DNA from: Brevibacillus humidisoli
GTDB lineage: Bacteria > Bacillota > Bacilli > Brevibacillales > Brevibacillaceae
Direction of reading: 5' to 3'
Length of the DNA stretch: 64,000 bases
Assembly: GCF_020923435.1 (NCBI RefSeq)
Contig: NZ_CP087263.1
Location: 3,181,970 to 3,245,969 of the forward strand
Position 1 is the stretch's first letter. Each line of letters opens with the position of its first letter. The position numbers were made by a program, and so were the translations under genes. The notes under the pieces were generated by a model. It did no database searches. It had not been told where the DNA came from and worked only from the letters and a program-made list of their open reading frames with translations. Below are positions 1,606-57,469 of the stretch, piece after piece.

Positions 1606-1775
1606 TTTTCTCCCTAAGGTGTAACACATAAGCCAAACTCACGTGTCTGCGTCGCTCGGTCCAGACCTTCTCCTAGAGGATGCGCAGCATGTGCTCTATC
1701 ACTCGCATTCCCATCATCTCTCGACTGTAGCCAAGACGGCAAGCAGCGGAAAAGCGGAACCCTAGACGCTCTTTC

Positions 1776-1844
1776 ACTCGTAGTCAGATGATTTACGGTC
1801 ATCTGGTAGATACTTATGGGCCGTATTCCCATGATTATACGAGT
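1776..1844 (-). promoter_or_regulatory. Purine (guanine-class) riboswitch aptamer
   Basis: The minus strand carries the full purine-aptamer core: ACTCGTATAATC at the 5' side of P1, the TATCTACC element, the ACCGTAAAT loop, and TGACTACGAGT closing P1. The specificity position in the GACTA segment is C, as in guanine/hypoxanthine-binding members; adenine members have U there. It precedes xpt-pbuX, the classic target of this RNA. Confidence 0.95.
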
Positions 1845-1869
1845 CTATTTCGTTGTGTTCGTCCTTCAC

Positions 1870-2490: not shown

Positions 2491-2603
2491 ATCTCTTATC
2501 CAGAGAGGTGGAGGGGCAGGGCCCTATGAAACCCGGCAACCACATGTGACGCACAACATGATGGTGCCAATTCCCGCAAGCGCGATGCTTGCAAGATAAG
2601 AGG
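2491..2603 (+). promoter_or_regulatory. SAM-I (S-box) riboswitch
   Basis: The conserved S-box elements appear in order: CTCTTATCCAGAGAGGTGGAGGG, then GGCCCTATGAAACCCGGCAACC, then GGTGCCAATTCC, closing with GATAAGAG that pairs with CTCTTATC to form P1. When SAM binds, P1 forms and releases the downstream terminator. When SAM is low, ATAAGAGG pairs with CCTCTTAT of the terminator. It controls the ECF importer that follows. Confidence 0.97.
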
Positions 2604-15390: not shown

Positions 15391-15505
15391 CTCCCTTATC
15401 TGCCAGGTCGTATGCCTGCAGGAATTGGCACCTTCCTGAAAGTTTGCCTTCCAGTGGGTTGCCGGGTTTCATCGGGCCAGTCCCTCCACCACTCATAATA
15501 AGGGG
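15391..15505 (-). promoter_or_regulatory. SAM-I (S-box) riboswitch controlling the nucleoside importer
   Basis: The minus strand shows the S-box order: CCCCTTATTATGAGTGGTGGAGGG, then GGCCCGATGAAACCCGGCAACC, then GGTGCCAATTCCTGC, and GATAAGGGAG closing P1. A terminator follows before the BMP lipoprotein gene. So the BMP-NupOPQ operon should be off when SAM is abundant. Confidence 0.96.
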
Positions 15506-41715: not shown

Positions 41716-42417
41716 TCAGGATAGCAGGTCGTCCCGCTTATCAACATGCAGGCTGCCATCTGATTGAAGCTCAGCGTAAAACACTTCTTCCAGATAGGTC
41801 ACCCCTGCCTTTTTCAGTTCCTCGCCCAACCACGCCTGGCTGAGATTAAGTTCGTCCAGGTTTTGTTTGATCAACTTTCCATCGACGATAATCTCTGTAG
41901 GCAAATAGAGCAGAGGTGGCGTGGGTACCTGTACGTCCTGCTTCGTCGCTGTTTGTTTTTCCGTCTTCTTCAATATGCTGATTTTGCCGTTTGGCTCCAG
42001 GATCGCGTATTCAACGTCCTTTATGGAAAACACACCGTTCACCCGTAGCATCATGCTTAAATCATCCATGTTCAGACGGGATCCGGCCAATGCCCGTTCG
42101 AGAATTTTCCCCTTTTTGATCACAATGGTCGGCTGGCCATCCAGGATGAGCCGCGCTTTCCCCGACTTCATCCCGATAAACCCGATCACAAATGTTAAGA
42201 CGACCCACCAGATCAGACTGATTAAACCACCCACTACAGGAGCTTCCCGTCTGGCTGCTATTTCTGCAGCAATCGATCCAATGGTAATCCCGGCAACATA
42301 GTTAAAAAAGGTTAGTTGCCCAACCTGCTTCTTCCCCAACAGGCGAGTCAGCAGCAGCAGCACCAGGAAGGTTACCGTCGCACGGCCTATCATCTCCAGG
42401 GCATGAACGTCCTTCAT
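41716..42417 (-). CDS. DUF421-family membrane protein (YetF-like)
   Basis: 233 residues: three N-terminal helices (about 12-80, TRLLGKKQVGQLTFFNYVAGITIGSIAAE is the family hallmark), then two small cytoplasmic domains with SRLNMDDLSMMLR and VFSIKDVEYAILEPNGKIS. In Bacillus these proteins (YetF, YrbG and others) are membrane proteins of unsettled function, often expressed in sporulation. The gene is isolated between the lipid kinase and the small-protein genes. Confidence 0.88.
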   Translation of the reverse strand: MKDVHALEMIGRATVTFLVLLLLTRLLGKKQVGQLTFFNYVAGITIGSIAAEIAARREAPVVGGLISLIWWVVLTFVIGFIGMKSGKARLILDGQPTIVIKKGKILERALAGSRLNMDDLSMMLRVNGVFSIKDVEYAILEPNGKISILKKTEKQTATKQDVQVPTPPLLYLPTEIIVDGKLIKQNLDELNLSQAWLGEELKKAGVTYLEEVFYAELQSDGSLHVDKRDDLLS

Positions 42418-42607
42418 CTGTTTCCTCCCTTATCCAATATGTTTTTTCTTACCATCTCCTACAACGACATCTTTTATCAGATCAGTAGAAAAAGGTTCCG
42501 TGCAACAAGGGGATCCATAAAAATCAGCGACCGCCGTATGCGCTTGTCCGGTGCTTTGTCAGAGTTCCTCCATATGATGTAGCAAACGGATGAAAGGAGG
42601 CGCTAAC

Positions 42608-42793
42608 ATGAACCAGATCATTGCCTTTTTGGCCGGACTGATTGGTGGTTATGCGTTGACAGAAGCACCGCTTGCCGGAACCTTTCTATCTAGTCTTGAA
42701 TCATTGATTGATGTAGTCGGCCTCATCTCCATGGTAGTATTCTCTGCAGGGCTGATCTACAGCGGAGTGAAAGGACTAATCGGTAAATCGTAA
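42608..42793 (+). CDS. Small two-helix membrane protein
   Basis: 61 residues with two hydrophobic helices (about 4-20 and 35-57) and few charges; it ends KGLIGKS. ATG 42608 follows AAAGGAGG by 8 bases. I do not recognise a family. It sits just before the arginine-rich microprotein genes in the same direction, with about 90 bases between, so they may share a sporulation setting, but it lacks the conserved promoter block of those genes. Confidence 0.7.
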   Translation: MNQIIAFLAGLIGGYALTEAPLAGTFLSSLESLIDVVGLISMVVFSAGLIYSGVKGLIGKS

Positions 42794-42814: not shown

Positions 42815-42853
42815 CACTTATCCCTATCATTCTCGTCTACGCCACATAGAATA
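42815..42853 (+). promoter_or_regulatory. Candidate sporulation (sigma-E/K-like) promoter of arginine-rich gene 1
   Basis: CATAGAATA (42845-42853) fits the CATA-N3-TA -10 element of mother-cell sigma factors. A block starting CACTTATCCCTATCA begins exactly 30 bases before it. The same arrangement recurs at 43081-43119, also with 30 bases between CACTT and CATA. The start codon is 40 bases after CATA. Confidence 0.55.
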
Positions 42854-42884
42854 GAGCAAGCTTCTTGTGGAGGGAGGTGATTTC

Positions 42885-42971
42885 ATGAGCCGCCGCCGTC
42901 GCCCGATTCGGATCACGCTCAGACGTGGTCAAAGTGTACTAGTTCGCTGCCGTCGCCGTCGTAGCTGGTAA
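42885..42971 (+). CDS. Arginine-rich microprotein 1 (28 residues)
   Basis: ATG 42885, preceded by GGGAGGTG at an 8-base spacing, encodes a 28-residue protein with 12 arginines: MSRRRRP, a central IRITLRRGQSVLV, then RCRRRRSW. It has one cysteine, no acidic residues, and a very high positive charge. A paralogue lies 265 bases downstream. The strong ribosome site, conserved promoter block, and own terminator argue for a real gene. I know no family for it. A nucleic-acid- or polyanion-binding role, perhaps in spores, is inferred from charge and promoter type. Confidence 0.75.
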   Translation: MSRRRRPIRITLRRGQSVLVRCRRRRSW

Positions 42972-43005
42972 TTACCGGAAGATAGAGAGAACATCGATCA
43001 TATGC

Positions 43006-43044
43006 AAACAGCCGCCATGGTATTGCTCACATGGTGGCTGTTTT
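43006..43044 (+). terminator. Terminator of arginine-rich gene 1
   Basis: AAACAGCCGCCATG pairs with CATGGTGGCTGTTT (one G-U pair) around a 10-base loop, followed by a T run. It makes the microprotein gene a complete single-gene transcription unit. Confidence 0.88.
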
Positions 43045-43080
43045 ATCATTTTCTATGAAAATGATGGGAATGTCCCATAG

Positions 43081-43119
43081 CACTTGTCCATACCAATTCT
43101 CTAACCTCCTCATAGGATA
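43081..43119 (+). promoter_or_regulatory. Candidate sporulation (sigma-E/K-like) promoter of arginine-rich gene 2
   Basis: CATAGGATA (43111-43119) again fits CATA-N3-TA, with CACTTGTCCATACCA starting 30 bases before it. The -35-like ACC sits 16 bases ahead of CATA, as in sigma-K promoters. Conservation with the first copy while the spacer has diverged suggests selection. Confidence 0.55.
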
Positions 43120-43149
43120 TAGTATCCAGTGGCAGAGGAGGTGTTGTTT

Positions 43150-43233
43150 ATGTCGTGCCGCCGTCGTCGCCCGGTTCGGATCACGCTCAGAGCTGGTCAA
43201 AGTGTATTGGTACGCTGCCGCCGCCGCCGCTAA
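43150..43233 (+). CDS. Arginine-rich microprotein 2 (27 residues)
   Basis: ATG 43150, with AGAGGAGGTG about 8 bases upstream, encodes 27 residues with 11 arginines: MSCRRRRP, VRITLRAGQSVLV, RCRRRR. It matches the first copy except at a few positions (Cys for Arg at 3, Val for Ile, Ala for Arg, and loss of the SW end) with several silent codon changes, so the protein sequence is being kept. Two cysteines are present. It has its own promoter-like block and terminator. Function unknown. Confidence 0.75.
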   Translation: MSCRRRRPVRITLRAGQSVLVRCRRRR

Positions 43234-43267
43234 TTGCCACGAGGTGTAAGGGATAAGATCCCAATCA

Positions 43268-43305
43268 AAGAGCCACTATGTCCAAGGCATAGTGGCTCTT
43301 CTTTC
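43268..43305 (+). terminator. Terminator of arginine-rich gene 2
   Basis: AAGAGCCACTATG pairs perfectly with CATAGTGGCTCTT around a 7-base loop, followed by CTTTC. Confidence 0.88.
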
Positions 43306-43364: not shown

Positions 43365-44193
43365 TCAAATCCGGTAGGGCAGAACTACTCCCACTTGCTC
43401 AGGGTGAATCCGTGCCAGGTAGATCAATACAGCTACCAGACAAAATCCAATGACCAGGATGGCGATCTCGCTCCGCTTCCAGGCGGGCATGCGGTAAAAA
43501 CGATGGGCCCGATTCCGTATCGCAAATCCTTTTGCGTCCAATGCGTTGGCCATCAACTGCACTCGCTTCAGGGGGGTGAAGATCAGTGGCAGCAACAAAT
43601 ACCCGTATTTACGCACTTTCTCAAACAGGGTGCCCTCGTTGATCCGCAGTCCGCGCACCATCTGTGCCTCACGAATGGTGAGCAGATCGTTTTTAACCAA
43701 TGGAATAAAACGAAAGATCAAAGAAAGCAAGAAACCGAACGAAAATGGCACCCCAATGCCTTTCAGACCAATCGCGATCTGGCGTGGTGTTGTTTTAAAG
43801 AGATAAAACATGGACAGCAGGGCGACGTTGGCTATGCGCAGCCCCATGCCGAATGCCCACAACACACCCACATCGGTCACCTGTATCGGATACCCGATCA
43901 GCGGGATTTCTCCCGCCCAGTAGGCCTCTCCAGCCGAAACAAACGGCAGCCAGGTTAGAGTGGTAAACAAGCCTCCGACTCCCCCCCAGCAGCAGATATG
44001 TCTTGCCAATGGTACGGGTCCATCCCCATCTGGACACGATGAACAGATTCAGCAGCAAGTCAATCAACAGTATGCGCGGGTCTTGGAAAATAAACGGTAC
44101 CATTCCCAACAAAGCACACCCGAGCAGCATGAAACTAGGGTGGAAACCTCGGCCTTGTACCGTAAGCGGTTCCGATCTCAACAATTGGTTCAT
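43365..44193 (-). pseudogene. ECF transporter EcfT, frameshifted at a G7 run
   Basis: The N-terminal part (from ATG 44193, MNQLLRSEPLTVQGRGFHPS) is open to the minus-strand GGGGGGG at 43981-43987 and then shifts into nonsense. The rest of EcfT continues in the next frame as VGGLFTTLTWLPFVSAGEAYW, with MVRGLRINEG and DAKGFAIRNR as the coupling motifs, to 43365. Removing one G restores a single protein of about 275 residues. It is the last gene of the second ECF operon. The shift could be a sequencing error, a true inactivation, or slippage-prone switching. Confidence 0.85.
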
Positions 44194-47316: not shown

Positions 47317-49461
47317 TCAATATCCCAAACCGTGCCCATAACGGTACAAGACGCCGCCGTGCGAATCCGGAATCGTCACCGGCAGTTTTCCGGCAGGCGA
47401 TTGTTCGCCAAACAGCACATTGGCAGTGGCTGCAAAGCTGGCCGCACGGAATCCGTACTGGGCCAGGTAGGCATCCACATCCGGGTAGGCCATCACGTCG
47501 TATGGATTGCGGATACCTACAGCCACCACCGGTTTATCGTACTTGGAGATGATCTGGTTGAAGGCTTTCATCGTTTCGTTATCGGCAGAACGTCCGCTGA
47601 CATTGTAGGTGTAGGAGCCGATGATAATCACATCCGCTCTGTCCAGCAGCTCCCATTGAGCCGCTGTCAGCCCGCCTTTTTCCAGTTGAACCGGTACCGT
47701 ATTGGCGTGATGCGATTTGACTGCTCCCACCAAACTATCCAGATAACTGGTTCCGACAACAGCGATCTCTTGGTTGTCATCCAGGCCAAGCGGCAGAACC
47801 TGCTCGTTTTTCACCAGCGTGATAGAGGCTGCCGCAGCCTCTGCTTCCACCGCTTTATGTTCAGGGGCACCAACGATCTGCAGTGCCTCCTGCAGACGTT
47901 GCTCGACATCAACAGGAGTTTCTTCTTTCATGATTCCCCGTTTTACTTTCAACGTCAAGATTCGTTTCACCGCAGTATCGATCCGCTGCTGCGGGATCTC
48001 ACCTGACGCTACCGCCTCCTGCAGCCCCTCGCTCACTTCTTGCAACCCGACCGGCATCAAGACGATATCGACGCCTGCCTTTACGGCTCGCACCGCCGCA
48101 TCAACAGGGCCGAAATGATCCGTGATCGCCTGCATGTTCATCGCATCGGTGATCACAACCCCGTCAAACTGCAATTCGTCACGGATTAAACCGGTCAGCA
48201 CTTTCTCAGACAGCGTAGCCGGCAGGGCGATCTCTGTACCGTCTTTCCGAGAGACTACTTTGGTGTTGTCGATCTTAGGAAACGTCACATGGGCCGTCAT
48301 AATCGCATCAATCCCTGCATCAATCGCCTGTTGGAACGGATACAGCTCGACGTCTACCAGACGTTCCTTATCGTGCGGTACTTCTGGCAATCCCAGATGG
48401 GAATCGACGGACGTATCACCATGTCCCGGGAAATGTTTGGCCGTGGCAGCAATGCCATTCTGCTGCAATCCTCTGGTATAAGCAATGCCGAGGTCAGCGA
48501 CCAGTTGCGGGTCTTCAGCGAATGAACGGACACCGATGACCGGATTGTCAGGATTGTTGTTTACGTCCAGTACCGGCGCAAGGTCCATGTTAAATCCAAG
48601 CGAAGCCAGTTCACGCCCGATCACATCACCCGTCTTTTCGGCCAACTCTGTCGAGCGGGCCGCTCCCAATGCCATGTTGCCAGGCAAGTCGGTACCGCTC
48701 TGCAGTCTGGTAACGATGCCGCCTTCCTGGTCGATGCTGATCAGCAGCCCGTACTTTTCGGCAGCTTGCCGATAAGCATCCACGAGACGAAGCGTCTGCT
48801 CAGTGGTAACCACGTTTTCACGGAACAGGATCACTCCGCCGATATGATACTTCTTGATCTGCTGCTCTATCTCCGGCAGCATCTTGATAACATCCTGCCC
48901 ATTGTACTTGCGGAAGTCCGGCATCAGCATCTGCCCGATCTTCTCTTCCAGCGTCATGTTCTGTACCGCCCGGTCGATGATCTGATACCGTTCCCCCTCT
49001 TCCTTTACAATGGTGATCACGGACTCCGGCTTGCCTTTCTGCTTAGGCTGTGGGTCCATCCTGACATCGAGCGCGATACGGTCAGTGTAATGGCCATCTG
49101 TAACTGTGACAAACGTCCGACCTGGTTTGCCGGCAGCTGTCACCACACCGTTCTCAACGGAGGCGACTGTTATATTGGAAGATTCCCACGTCAGGCCCTC
49201 CGTAACCTTCGCAAAATGGCCGTCCTCGTATACATGCAGGGCGGATAACCGGAGTGTCTGACCCGATGCTGCTGCCTCTACTTCCGGCACATTTTGATAG
49301 ATGATCAGATCGGCTGCACTGCCTTCAGTCGATGCTGCTCCGACATGATCTGTCGCCGCACGTTCCCCGCCGTTCCCCTGACTCCCGGCAGCAACCGCTT
49401 GCGCCGCCAGCAGCAGACATAAAAGCAATCCGATCAGAATCCTCTTGCTTCGACCTTTCAT
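47317..49461 (-). CDS. nagZ: Secreted beta-N-acetylglucosaminidase, GH3 (NagZ-like) with a Big2-type domain
   Basis: 714 residues. A signal peptide (about 1-25, LLLCLLLAAQAVAA) lacks a lipobox, unlike B. subtilis NagZ. A bacterial-Ig-like (Big2) domain follows (about 60-135, LTWESSNITVASVENGVVTAAGKPG). The GH3 barrel (about 165-500) has the NagZ His-Asp motif KHFPGHGDTSVDSH, and a C-terminal domain ends the protein. It removes GlcNAc from muropeptides outside the cell. It lies 68 bases after namZ in the same direction, forming a peptidoglycan-recycling pair. Confidence 0.92.
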   Translation of the reverse strand: MKGRSKRILIGLLLCLLLAAQAVAAGSQGNGGERAATDHVGAASTEGSAADLIIYQNVPEVEAAASGQTLRLSALHVYEDGHFAKVTEGLTWESSNITVASVENGVVTAAGKPGRTFVTVTDGHYTDRIALDVRMDPQPKQKGKPESVITIVKEEGERYQIIDRAVQNMTLEEKIGQMLMPDFRKYNGQDVIKMLPEIEQQIKKYHIGGVILFRENVVTTEQTLRLVDAYRQAAEKYGLLISIDQEGGIVTRLQSGTDLPGNMALGAARSTELAEKTGDVIGRELASLGFNMDLAPVLDVNNNPDNPVIGVRSFAEDPQLVADLGIAYTRGLQQNGIAATAKHFPGHGDTSVDSHLGLPEVPHDKERLVDVELYPFQQAIDAGIDAIMTAHVTFPKIDNTKVVSRKDGTEIALPATLSEKVLTGLIRDELQFDGVVITDAMNMQAITDHFGPVDAAVRAVKAGVDIVLMPVGLQEVSEGLQEAVASGEIPQQRIDTAVKRILTLKVKRGIMKEETPVDVEQRLQEALQIVGAPEHKAVEAEAAAASITLVKNEQVLPLGLDDNQEIAVVGTSYLDSLVGAVKSHHANTVPVQLEKGGLTAAQWELLDRADVIIIGSYTYNVSGRSADNETMKAFNQIISKYDKPVVAVGIRNPYDVMAYPDVDAYLAQYGFRAASFAATANVLFGEQSPAGKLPVTIPDSHGGVLYRYGHGLGY

Positions 49462-49529
49462 TGCTCATTCCCCTTCCTGGTGCTGATCAGCGTATTCGAT
49501 ACGCGTGTCTTCTGTCTTTCTTTCTCCCT

Positions 49530-50810
49530 CTAATGATACAGCAGATACGATTCTCGCAGTGCTTTAAATTCCTCCAACTCGGTCTGCCAGTCAGCGACGA
49601 TGTCGTCTACGGACGTCCCTGCGTCAAGCGCCTGCCGCACGCTGTTTGTCCCCATCAGCTTGTCAATCCAGTTGTCGCTGCGCCAGGCCAACTGGTCGGG
49701 ATACAAGCTTTTTACCTCACGGATCATCATGAGGGCAGTGCGGACAGGTTGATAGGCCTCACGATCGGTTACGTACACCTGAACACCTCCGACGTTTTCC
49801 CCTTTATACTTGGAGAATGTGGGAGAAAAATAAGCTTCCCGAAAGGAAACACCCGGCAGATTGAGGCTGTTCAGCCGCTCAGCCAATCGCCAGCCCTCGA
49901 TGTAAGGAGCGCCGATCAGTTCAAAGGGACGAGTCGTGCCGCGCCCTTCGGAAAGGTTGGTACCCTCAAACAGGCCGTTCCCTGGGTAAACCATCGCGGT
50001 CTCCAGTGTCGGCATGTTGGGAGAGGGGAGCACCCAAGGCAGACCCGTGTCGTCAAACCACATGCTGCGCCGCCATCCTTCCATCTGAATCACCTGCAGC
50101 TTCGCCTTCCTGCCAATCTCTTCCTCCAGGAAACGATCATTAAACAGTTGCGCCAGTTCCCCCACCGTCATTCCGTGACGAATCGGGATCGGGAATATCC
50201 CGACAAACGACTGGTACTCCGGCTCCAGTACCGGTCCCTCCACGATCTGGCCGCCAATCGGATTGGGACGGTCCAGCACAAGAAACGGTTTCTCCTGCAG
50301 GGCAGCCGCTTCCATCGCATGTGCCATCGTCGAGATATAGGTATAGAAACGAGACCCTACGTCCTGAATATCAAACAAAAGGACATCAACATCCTCAAAC
50401 AAAACAGCAATCTCTTCCGGTTTTTTGCCATACAAATTATAAAACGGCAATCCCGTTTTGGGATCCTCAAAGGTGCCCGGGATATCCCCTGCCTGCTCCG
50501 TCCCACGAACACCGTGTTCCGGTCCGTATACCTCAACCAACTGAACCCCATGCTGAAGCAAGGCATCCACATCATGCGTCAACTCCTGCGTAATGCCGGT
50601 CGGGTTGGTGATCAAGCCCACTTTTTTGCCTTCCAGCAGCTCGGGGTTTTCCAACAAGACATCGATGCCGTTCTTCACCCCGTGATCCCGCCCGTGGTTC
50701 TGCTTAGGTCCCTCCCGTTCGGCTGAGACAGCGGAATCCGTGCCAGTCGGTCCAATCGTACACACCAAAGCCAACACTCCTGCCAACGCCAGACTGCACC
50801 ATCTTTTCAC
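49530..50810 (-). CDS. namZ: Exo-beta-N-acetylmuramidase (NamZ, DUF1343)
   Basis: 426 residues with a signal peptide (about 1-30) and the DUF1343 fold: VGLITNPTGITQELTHDVD, YGPEHGVRG, LFDIQDVGSRFYTYISTM, and DTGLPWVLPSPNMPT. NamZ (B. subtilis YbbC) releases MurNAc from peptidoglycan fragments; NagZ removes the GlcNAc. GTG 50810 has AAGGAGG 8 bases upstream. It is the first gene of the namZ-nagZ operon. No murQ, murP or murR lies in the window, so how MurNAc enters the cell is not shown here. Confidence 0.92.
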   Translation of the reverse strand: MKRWCSLALAGVLALVCTIGPTGTDSAVSAEREGPKQNHGRDHGVKNGIDVLLENPELLEGKKVGLITNPTGITQELTHDVDALLQHGVQLVEVYGPEHGVRGTEQAGDIPGTFEDPKTGLPFYNLYGKKPEEIAVLFEDVDVLLFDIQDVGSRFYTYISTMAHAMEAAALQEKPFLVLDRPNPIGGQIVEGPVLEPEYQSFVGIFPIPIRHGMTVGELAQLFNDRFLEEEIGRKAKLQVIQMEGWRRSMWFDDTGLPWVLPSPNMPTLETAMVYPGNGLFEGTNLSEGRGTTRPFELIGAPYIEGWRLAERLNSLNLPGVSFREAYFSPTFSKYKGENVGGVQVYVTDREAYQPVRTALMMIREVKSLYPDQLAWRSDNWIDKLMGTNSVRQALDAGTSVDDIVADWQTELEEFKALRESYLLYH

Positions 50811-57172: not shown

Positions 57173-57469
57173 AAAAAAGCCCATCCATCCCTGTCGATGC
57201 AGGGACGAATGGACCGCGGTACCACCCTGATTACTTTGGCACAAAGCCAAAATCACTCTGCCGTGCAAACCTTCTACACGGTGTCCGTGGTAACGTCTGG
57301 ACGGGACGCCAAAGCCTACTTCCTGACGGGTTCGGTCTGGAGCTCGGAAGTCCATTCAACATGCATTCCGCACCGGTTCTCACCTACCCACCGGCTCTCT
57401 GCAGCTTCCTGTCATGTCTACTCTTCTTCCTCATTGCCGAAAACTATCGTTATCGCTTCCTGTCATTTT
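57173..57469 (-). promoter_or_regulatory. T-box riboswitch (tRNA-Trp) of trpS, with terminator
   Basis: On the minus strand the leader has a Stem I pattern (GCAGAGAGCCGGTG, GGTGAGAACCGGTG), a specifier bulge with TGG in GAATGGACTTCCGAGC, and the invariant GGGTGGTACCGCGG (complement at 57213-57226). The terminator follows: CCATTCGTCCCTG pairs with CAGGGATGGATGG and then six T residues (57173-57212). TGG matches tryptophan. Uncharged tRNA-Trp should pair with it and prevent termination. Confidence 0.96.

Follow-up and report, generated by a model that had tools for sequence, protein, structure and literature searches.

An arginine-rich microprotein family with a conserved sporulation-type promoter module

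Promoters read by sigma-E and sigma-K in B. subtilis share their -10 element and differ at one -35 position, which is T for sigma-E and C for sigma-K (PMC517825). In C. difficile the -35 element is AC for sigma-K and ATA for sigma-E (PMC3789822), and bclB of B. thuringiensis, a sigma-K gene, carries AGC-N16-CATATAATT (PMC4750369). Among spore proteins of B. subtilis, CotG has positively charged repeats that control spore surface permeability (PMC9765600), and homologues of YetF are inner-membrane proteins of the spore that affect its resistance and germination (PMC12548441).

The window analyzed here is the whole stretch of 64,000 nucleotides, taken from a 4.9 Mb, single-contig genome of the Brevibacillus family (G000). 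Three plus-strand genes sit in it between a DUF421/YetF gene and a convergent ecf-type transport operon (a label derived from sequence). The features of this locus, by position in the window, are as follows:

41716-42417, minus strand: DUF421/YetF-family gene (PF04239).
42543-42579, plus strand: promoter module of the 61-aa gene, with CTTGTCC (42543-42549), 21 bases and CATATGATG (42571-42579); the same module stands upstream of the orthologues in G001 and G002.
42608-42793, plus strand: gene for a 61-aa hydrophobic protein, with no family match above threshold and with orthologues in G001 and G002.
42817-42853, plus strand: promoter module of unit 1, with CTTATCC (42817-42823), 21 bases and CATAGAATA (42845-42853).
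42885-42971, plus strand: unit 1 microprotein MSRRRRPIRITLRRGQSVLVRCRRRRSW, 28 aa with 12 Arg.
43006-43043, plus strand: terminator hairpin of unit 1, -23.5 kcal/mol, z -5.1.
43083-43119, plus strand: promoter module of unit 2, with CTTGTCC (43083-43089) followed by ATAC, and CATAGGATA (43111-43119).
43150-43233, plus strand: unit 2 microprotein MSCRRRRPVRITLRAGQSVLVRCRRRR, 27 aa with 11 Arg.
43268-43300, plus strand: terminator hairpin of unit 2, -23.9 kcal/mol, z -7.8.

Each unit is equipped with a ribosome site, a CATA-N3-TA element and a terminator hairpin. CACTT stands at 42815 in unit 1 and at 43081 in unit 2, and the direct repeat measures 73 nt (88% identity). The original prediction had described two units of about 265 bp, each with a frame of 27-28 codons holding 11-12 arginines and each closed by a strong terminator. 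The ATGs (42885 and 43150) are indeed 265 bp apart, the stops end at 42971 and 43233, the frames encode 28 residues with 12 arginines and 27 residues with 11, and both terminators fold as hairpins (-23.5 and -23.9 kcal/mol). Its promoter spacings of 30 and 39-40 bases are correct as start-to-start distances and incorrect as gaps. The tandem pair that it named is present as two units, but a third gene with the same promoter (42608-42793) and the GTCC box near the -35 element had been overlooked.

This gene for a 61-aa membrane protein is probably the third member of the cluster. The genus was represented by three genomes (G000, G001 and G002): the promoter module of the gene was present in each, and in the latter two its orthologues adjoin the microprotein. 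The next gene after unit 2 is ecfT-like, lies on the minus strand and converges on the unit 2 terminator. This EcfT-like gene (43365-44193, minus strand) is split over two frames near a run of seven Cs (43981-43987), and is either a frameshifted gene or a sequencing error. Elsewhere in the window, a NagZ-like glycosyl hydrolase family 3 protein is encoded beside a NamZ exo-muramidase gene (47317-50810, minus strand), the two probably being a peptidoglycan-recycling pair; the NagZ-like gene is near the microprotein also in G001 and G002. Rfam gathering scores were reached by a T-box leader (57198-57443, minus strand), a purine riboswitch (1761-1862, minus strand) and two SAM riboswitches (2493-2602, plus strand, and 15393-15504, minus strand).

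Matches to the microprotein were obtained in 10 of 59 related genomes at E ≤ 0.1, in 13 of 39 family genomes at E ≤ 0.01 (the sole match in G025 was judged to be chance) and, using a profile, in 37 of 398 class genomes at E ≤ 0.003, with G000 included each time. The class matches are spread over 11 families of the sampled class, and these 37 genomes supply the homologues that the original prediction had expected in related genomes. A draw from the phylum gave 4 matches in 398 genomes at E ≤ 0.0003, G000 included; the three outside the class all belong to family f108, and CATATAG- or CATACATAAT-like boxes stand upstream of them. Scanning a named genome collection returned four records, from a Brevibacillus sp., B. 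thermoruber (two copies), Paenibacillus oralis and Rubritepida, the last of which looks like a chance match. Two copies were found in G000, G002, G006, G027 (same family as G000), G098 and G157, and outside the class also in G693. Family-wide counts given below refer to a set of 45 members, from which L003 (own genome, E 1.8), L030 and L036 were excluded as chance matches and in which a doubtful member from G057 (poor start) was kept; the P. oralis relative (L130) and the f108 members were found later and are outside the 45.

SpoIIID (PF12116) was found in 263 of the 398 class genomes and in 36 of the 37 that are microprotein-positive (Fisher p = 2e-6, with kinship uncorrected and with two draws of 398 taken as the same genomes). 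The lone exception, G359, is 94% complete and is absent from the listed SpoIIID genomes, among which seven other genomes of its family, f48, appear. No match was obtained in 227 of the 263 SpoIIID-positive genomes, so sporulation as such does not depend on the microprotein family.

The unit 1 and unit 2 peptides are 92% identical as aligned. Over the 45 members, the core reads [RK]-x-[IV]-x-[IV]-x-L-x-P-G-[QED]-x-[VLI]-[LVI]-V-x-[AC]-[RK] and is followed by a basic tail of Arg, Lys and His. Because L..G was the anchor of the alignment rows, the conservation of L..G[QEDR] is partly by construction. V, I or F occupies the third hydrophobic position after the turn in 43 members, and in 35 a P precedes the G. 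Longer relatives contain extra Asn/Gly-rich or His-rich segments. Two proteins, L075 (G051, 97 aa) and L119 (G201, 89 aa), seem by eye to have at least three copies of the motif LxxG[QE]xVxxxC and are apparently multi-repeat relatives of the microprotein.

A two-strand hairpin is suggested by the hydrophobic core [IV]xLxPG[QED]x[VLI][LVI]V with its Pro-Gly turn. An AlphaFold2 model of the 30-aa P. oralis relative had a mean pLDDT of 73.6 (85 mid-chain) and a pTM of 0.19, with no secondary structure assigned; so weak a model neither backs nor excludes the hairpin, which is therefore unproven.

Codon changes were compared in 13 pairs of relatives over 18 core codons, giving 72.2 synonymous and 47.8 non-synonymous changes (pS 0.39 versus pN 0.09 per site; some members are shared between pairs, so the pairs are non-independent). 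Two of the 13 pairs, G112/G145 and G021/G019, had no synonymous excess. The peptide core is thus kept despite silent changes, as had been proposed from the two units, and the same core recurs in relatives from other genomes. Terminator-like hairpins followed 33 of the 45 members in a permissive scan, compared with 3.9 in random copies.

The upstream consensus of the family is T[TC]GTCCA[AT][AG]C, 16 or 17 bases, and CATANNNT. The -10 element CATANNNT(A) is present at both units and at the 61-aa gene; unit 1 has CACTTATCC, and unit 2 and most module-bearing relatives have TTGTCC or TCGTCC. A strict pattern, TGTCC-N17-23-CATANNNT, was found upstream of 15 of the 45 members (0.029 in random copies). 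A loose pattern, GTCC-N17-23-CATA, was found upstream of 28 (0.469 in random copies), which upholds the claim that the promoter is conserved; unit 1 was scored as a miss in this count because its box is ATCC. Even the loose pattern was absent from 17 members. Since GTCC and CATA were required by the search, only the other positions are independent. Among the 25 distinct box sequences, 22 have T at -2, 23 have A at +4 and 21 have C at +7; position 8 of the -10 element is T in 26 of 29 rows, among which the row of unit 1 was out of register.

Read in reverse, the GTCC box is similar to a SpoIIID site (consensus WWRRACARNY, reverse RYNTGTYYWW), but only 8 of 28 boxes match this consensus in full. 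The C at +7 of the box lies 16-17 bases before CATA, a spacing like that of AGC-N16-CATATAATT at bclB (PMC4750369). The ATAC-N17-CATAGGATA arrangement of unit 2 and the AAGC types fit sigma-K, and, judged by its sequence, the family module fits a mother-cell sigma-K promoter with an extra box.

To find other genes behind the module, 38 family genomes were scanned for TGTCCAWRC-N15-18-CATANNNTA, which gave 27 sites versus 7 for the reversed pattern. A site qualified if an ATG with a ribosome site, opening a frame of at least 20 aa, lay 50-135 bases downstream. This was so for 25 of the 27 sites and for none of the 7 controls (Fisher p = 7e-6, sites in related genomes being non-independent), and all 7 controls lay inside frames of 281-993 codons. 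The genes behind the 27 sites were:

L092: YjcZ (PF09680/TIGR01732).
L108, in the window's own genome: YjcZ-like 25-mer, recognized by eye, with no family match.
L107 and L110: YheC/D ATP-grasp proteins (PF14398), one of which has a GTG start and fails the ATG rule.
L089, L090, L091, L094, L095, L098, L100, L101, L102 and L111 (ten sites): acidic small proteins.
L096 and L097: 119-aa protein with a weak, sub-threshold resemblance to beta/gamma-crystallins.
Three sites: members of the present microprotein family.
Further sites: two FkbM methyltransferases and one GMC oxidoreductase.
L104 and L112: two other proteins.
L099, L105 and L106: no convincing gene.

The 20-aa frames at L105 and L106 look like chance, though they are among the 25 that qualified. 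By this breakdown (one YjcZ and two YheC/D), a sporulation-tied family model lay behind only 3 of the 27 sites. YheC/D proteins are associated with the coat. The acidic small proteins, which in Brevibacillus stand behind the GTCC - CATANNNTA module, are strongly acidic and contain runs of Asp, Glu and Ser. Relatives of them were found in 22 of the 38 genomes, all of genus g7 and none in the genus of the window, so the acidic protein is not a general charge partner of the microprotein. In G000 alone, CTTGTCC...CATANNNT was not enriched genome-wide (5 sites versus 9 reversed controls), and two of the 5 sites belong to the cluster described here. The GTCC - CATANNNT module may serve as a handle for further uncharacterized sporulation genes in Brevibacillus and its relatives.

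Flanks of family members were also scanned, covering 69 of 102 listed proteins, and gave no recurrent partner; among the matches listed, four Pfam families occurred in 2 proteins each and none in more. SpoVR was one of these four, with its genes seen twice among the 69.

On balance we favor, with modest confidence, a sporulation-specific cationic microprotein that the mother cell would make and that would end up in the spore envelope. Each unit is a complete gene of its own, coding for a small and strongly basic protein. During sporulation, RNA polymerase carrying sigma-K (or sigma-E/K) would transcribe it in the mother cell, with a helper factor bound to the conserved GTCC box beside the -35 element. 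The hydrophobic Pro-Gly core would form a two-strand hairpin flanked by clusters of Arg, Lys and His, and the protein would go into the spore envelope, either the coat or the space beneath it. There its basic ends could bind polyanions, namely coat proteins that are acidic or phosphorylated, glycan of the cortex, or nucleic acid from the mother cell as it lyses. The hairpin could pack against itself or a partner, so that the protein would be a minimal cationic glue acting like the cationic repeats of CotG. Conservation of the family and of its promoter is well supported by the comparisons above, which also support a small gene that is switched on in the mother cell. The sigma factor, timing, location, binding and mechanism we infer, with envelope deposition, polyanion binding and the hairpin suggested by how charged the protein is, by its Pro-Gly turn and by its resemblance to CotG.

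The same mother-cell promoter evidence would hold for a protamine-like protein that binds nucleic acid in the mother cell, condensing DNA or RNA late in sporulation or binding ribosomes, and that does not build coat. Arginine clusters are typical of nucleic-acid binding. The window peptides have such clusters and consist of about 40% Arg, with a calculated pI of 12, a net charge of about +11 and a mass of ~3.3-3.6 kDa. The family nevertheless keeps a hydrophobic strand-turn-strand core beside its basic residues, and in relatives Lys or His can take the place of Arg. Moreover, no match at E ≤ 1 to bL34, bL36 or other basic ribosomal or DNA-binding Pfam families was obtained with six short members (the two window peptides and four relatives). 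We regard this role as possible, although unlikely.

Small size, strong positive charge, a hydrophobic core and one or two cysteines would also suit a cationic antimicrobial or lytic peptide, either released at mother-cell lysis or acting on the mother cell itself, and the gene directly upstream encodes a small hydrophobic protein behind the same promoter. No signal peptide is evident by eye, however, and no immunity or export family recurred among the 69 flanking proteins scanned (none in more than two). The cysteine is not conserved either, the main site being Ala in 20 and Cys in 18 of the 45 members, and we consider a peptide of this kind improbable.

Many arginine codons followed by a strong hairpin could indicate leader peptides or a structured RNA that regulates something else through arginine supply. 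Attenuation needs a regulated gene downstream, but downstream of unit 1 comes unit 2, which has a promoter of its own, and the gene beyond unit 2 lies on the opposite strand and converges on it. Codon changes preserve the peptide rather than the DNA, and Rfam at gathering thresholds gave no match at the two units, so that this alternative is largely refuted and very improbable. Although arginine-codon repeats do open frames on several strands at the units, comparison between genomes refutes chance open frames in a CGN-rich repeat: dozens of genomes hold relatives, synonymous changes are in excess, and promoter and terminator are conserved. This alternative can be considered negligible.

Within the favored reading of an envelope protein, the two copies were compared between G000 and G002. 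Promoters (52 nt, ungapped) matched by position are 65% identical for the first copies and 71% for the second copies, and identity between copies is 56% and 42%. Coding parts (60 nt, ungapped) are 87% and 73% identical within a genome versus 53% and 58% between genomes. Because promoters correspond by position and coding parts are alike within a genome, gene conversion of the coding part is suggested, and it may have kept the product uniform; duplication of the coding part alone would give the same pattern. In both G000 and G002, the -35 base that discriminates is T in the first copy and C in the second, while both copies of G027 are of the AAGC type. The T/C split raises the idea, which we hold to be doubtful, of a timed pair in which unit 1 (sigma-E-like T) would be expressed first and unit 2 (sigma-K-like C) later, timing having diverged under a constant product, the product being a new building block of the spore envelope, a cationic hairpin microprotein that cross-links polyanions.

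The six short members gave no match above threshold in Pfam or NCBIfam, the only Pfam listing at E ≤ 1 being FbpC_C_terminal (E 0.096), and none to the YjcZ models TIGR01732/PF09680. One of 24 members matched PHROGs (E 0.0046), and the best result of a PDB sequence search was only E 0.96. Plasmid and phage collections, searched with one peptide each, gave no match, and searches of open-licence papers turned up no name for the family, which is weak evidence of absence. In the curated libraries scanned, the family is apparently unnamed. The prediction of a duplicated, undescribed family of tiny cationic sporulation proteins is supported by these results: homologues were found, SpoIIID is present in 36 of 37 positive genomes, the promoter is common to YjcZ and YheC/D genes, and the libraries name none. 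An apparently unnamed and widely scattered microprotein family may thereby be added to the sporulation programme. Only the joint conservation of promoter, peptide and terminator brought it to view. If it is a spore component, it would offer a 3-kDa model for how polycations organize the spore envelope.

We regard the family as new but of a known kind, the small mother-cell sporulation proteins. Small acid-soluble spore proteins, which are small, forespore-made DNA binders, are likewise small, but no Pfam model of that kind was matched and the promoter of the present family looks to be of the mother-cell type. YjcZ proteins are also tiny and tied to sporulation, and one of them (L092) stands behind the same GTCC - CATANNNTA module; they are hydrophobic, whereas the window peptides are cationic. 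With CotG and CotG-like coat proteins the family shares a strongly cationic character (PMC9765600). As CotG is described there, central tandem charged repeats set it apart from the window proteins, which are 27-28 aa long and have a hydrophobic core and no internal repeat. Sigma-K promoters of coat and exosporium genes likewise have a CATANNNT -10 element and a spacing of 16-17 (PMC517825, PMC4750369, PMC3789822). Their discriminating C in the -35 element is seen in 21 of the 25 distinct box sequences and in unit 2, and is T in unit 1. Unlike those known promoters, the promoters of this family have a highly conserved GTCC box that adjoins the -35 element and is a partial fit to the SpoIIID consensus.
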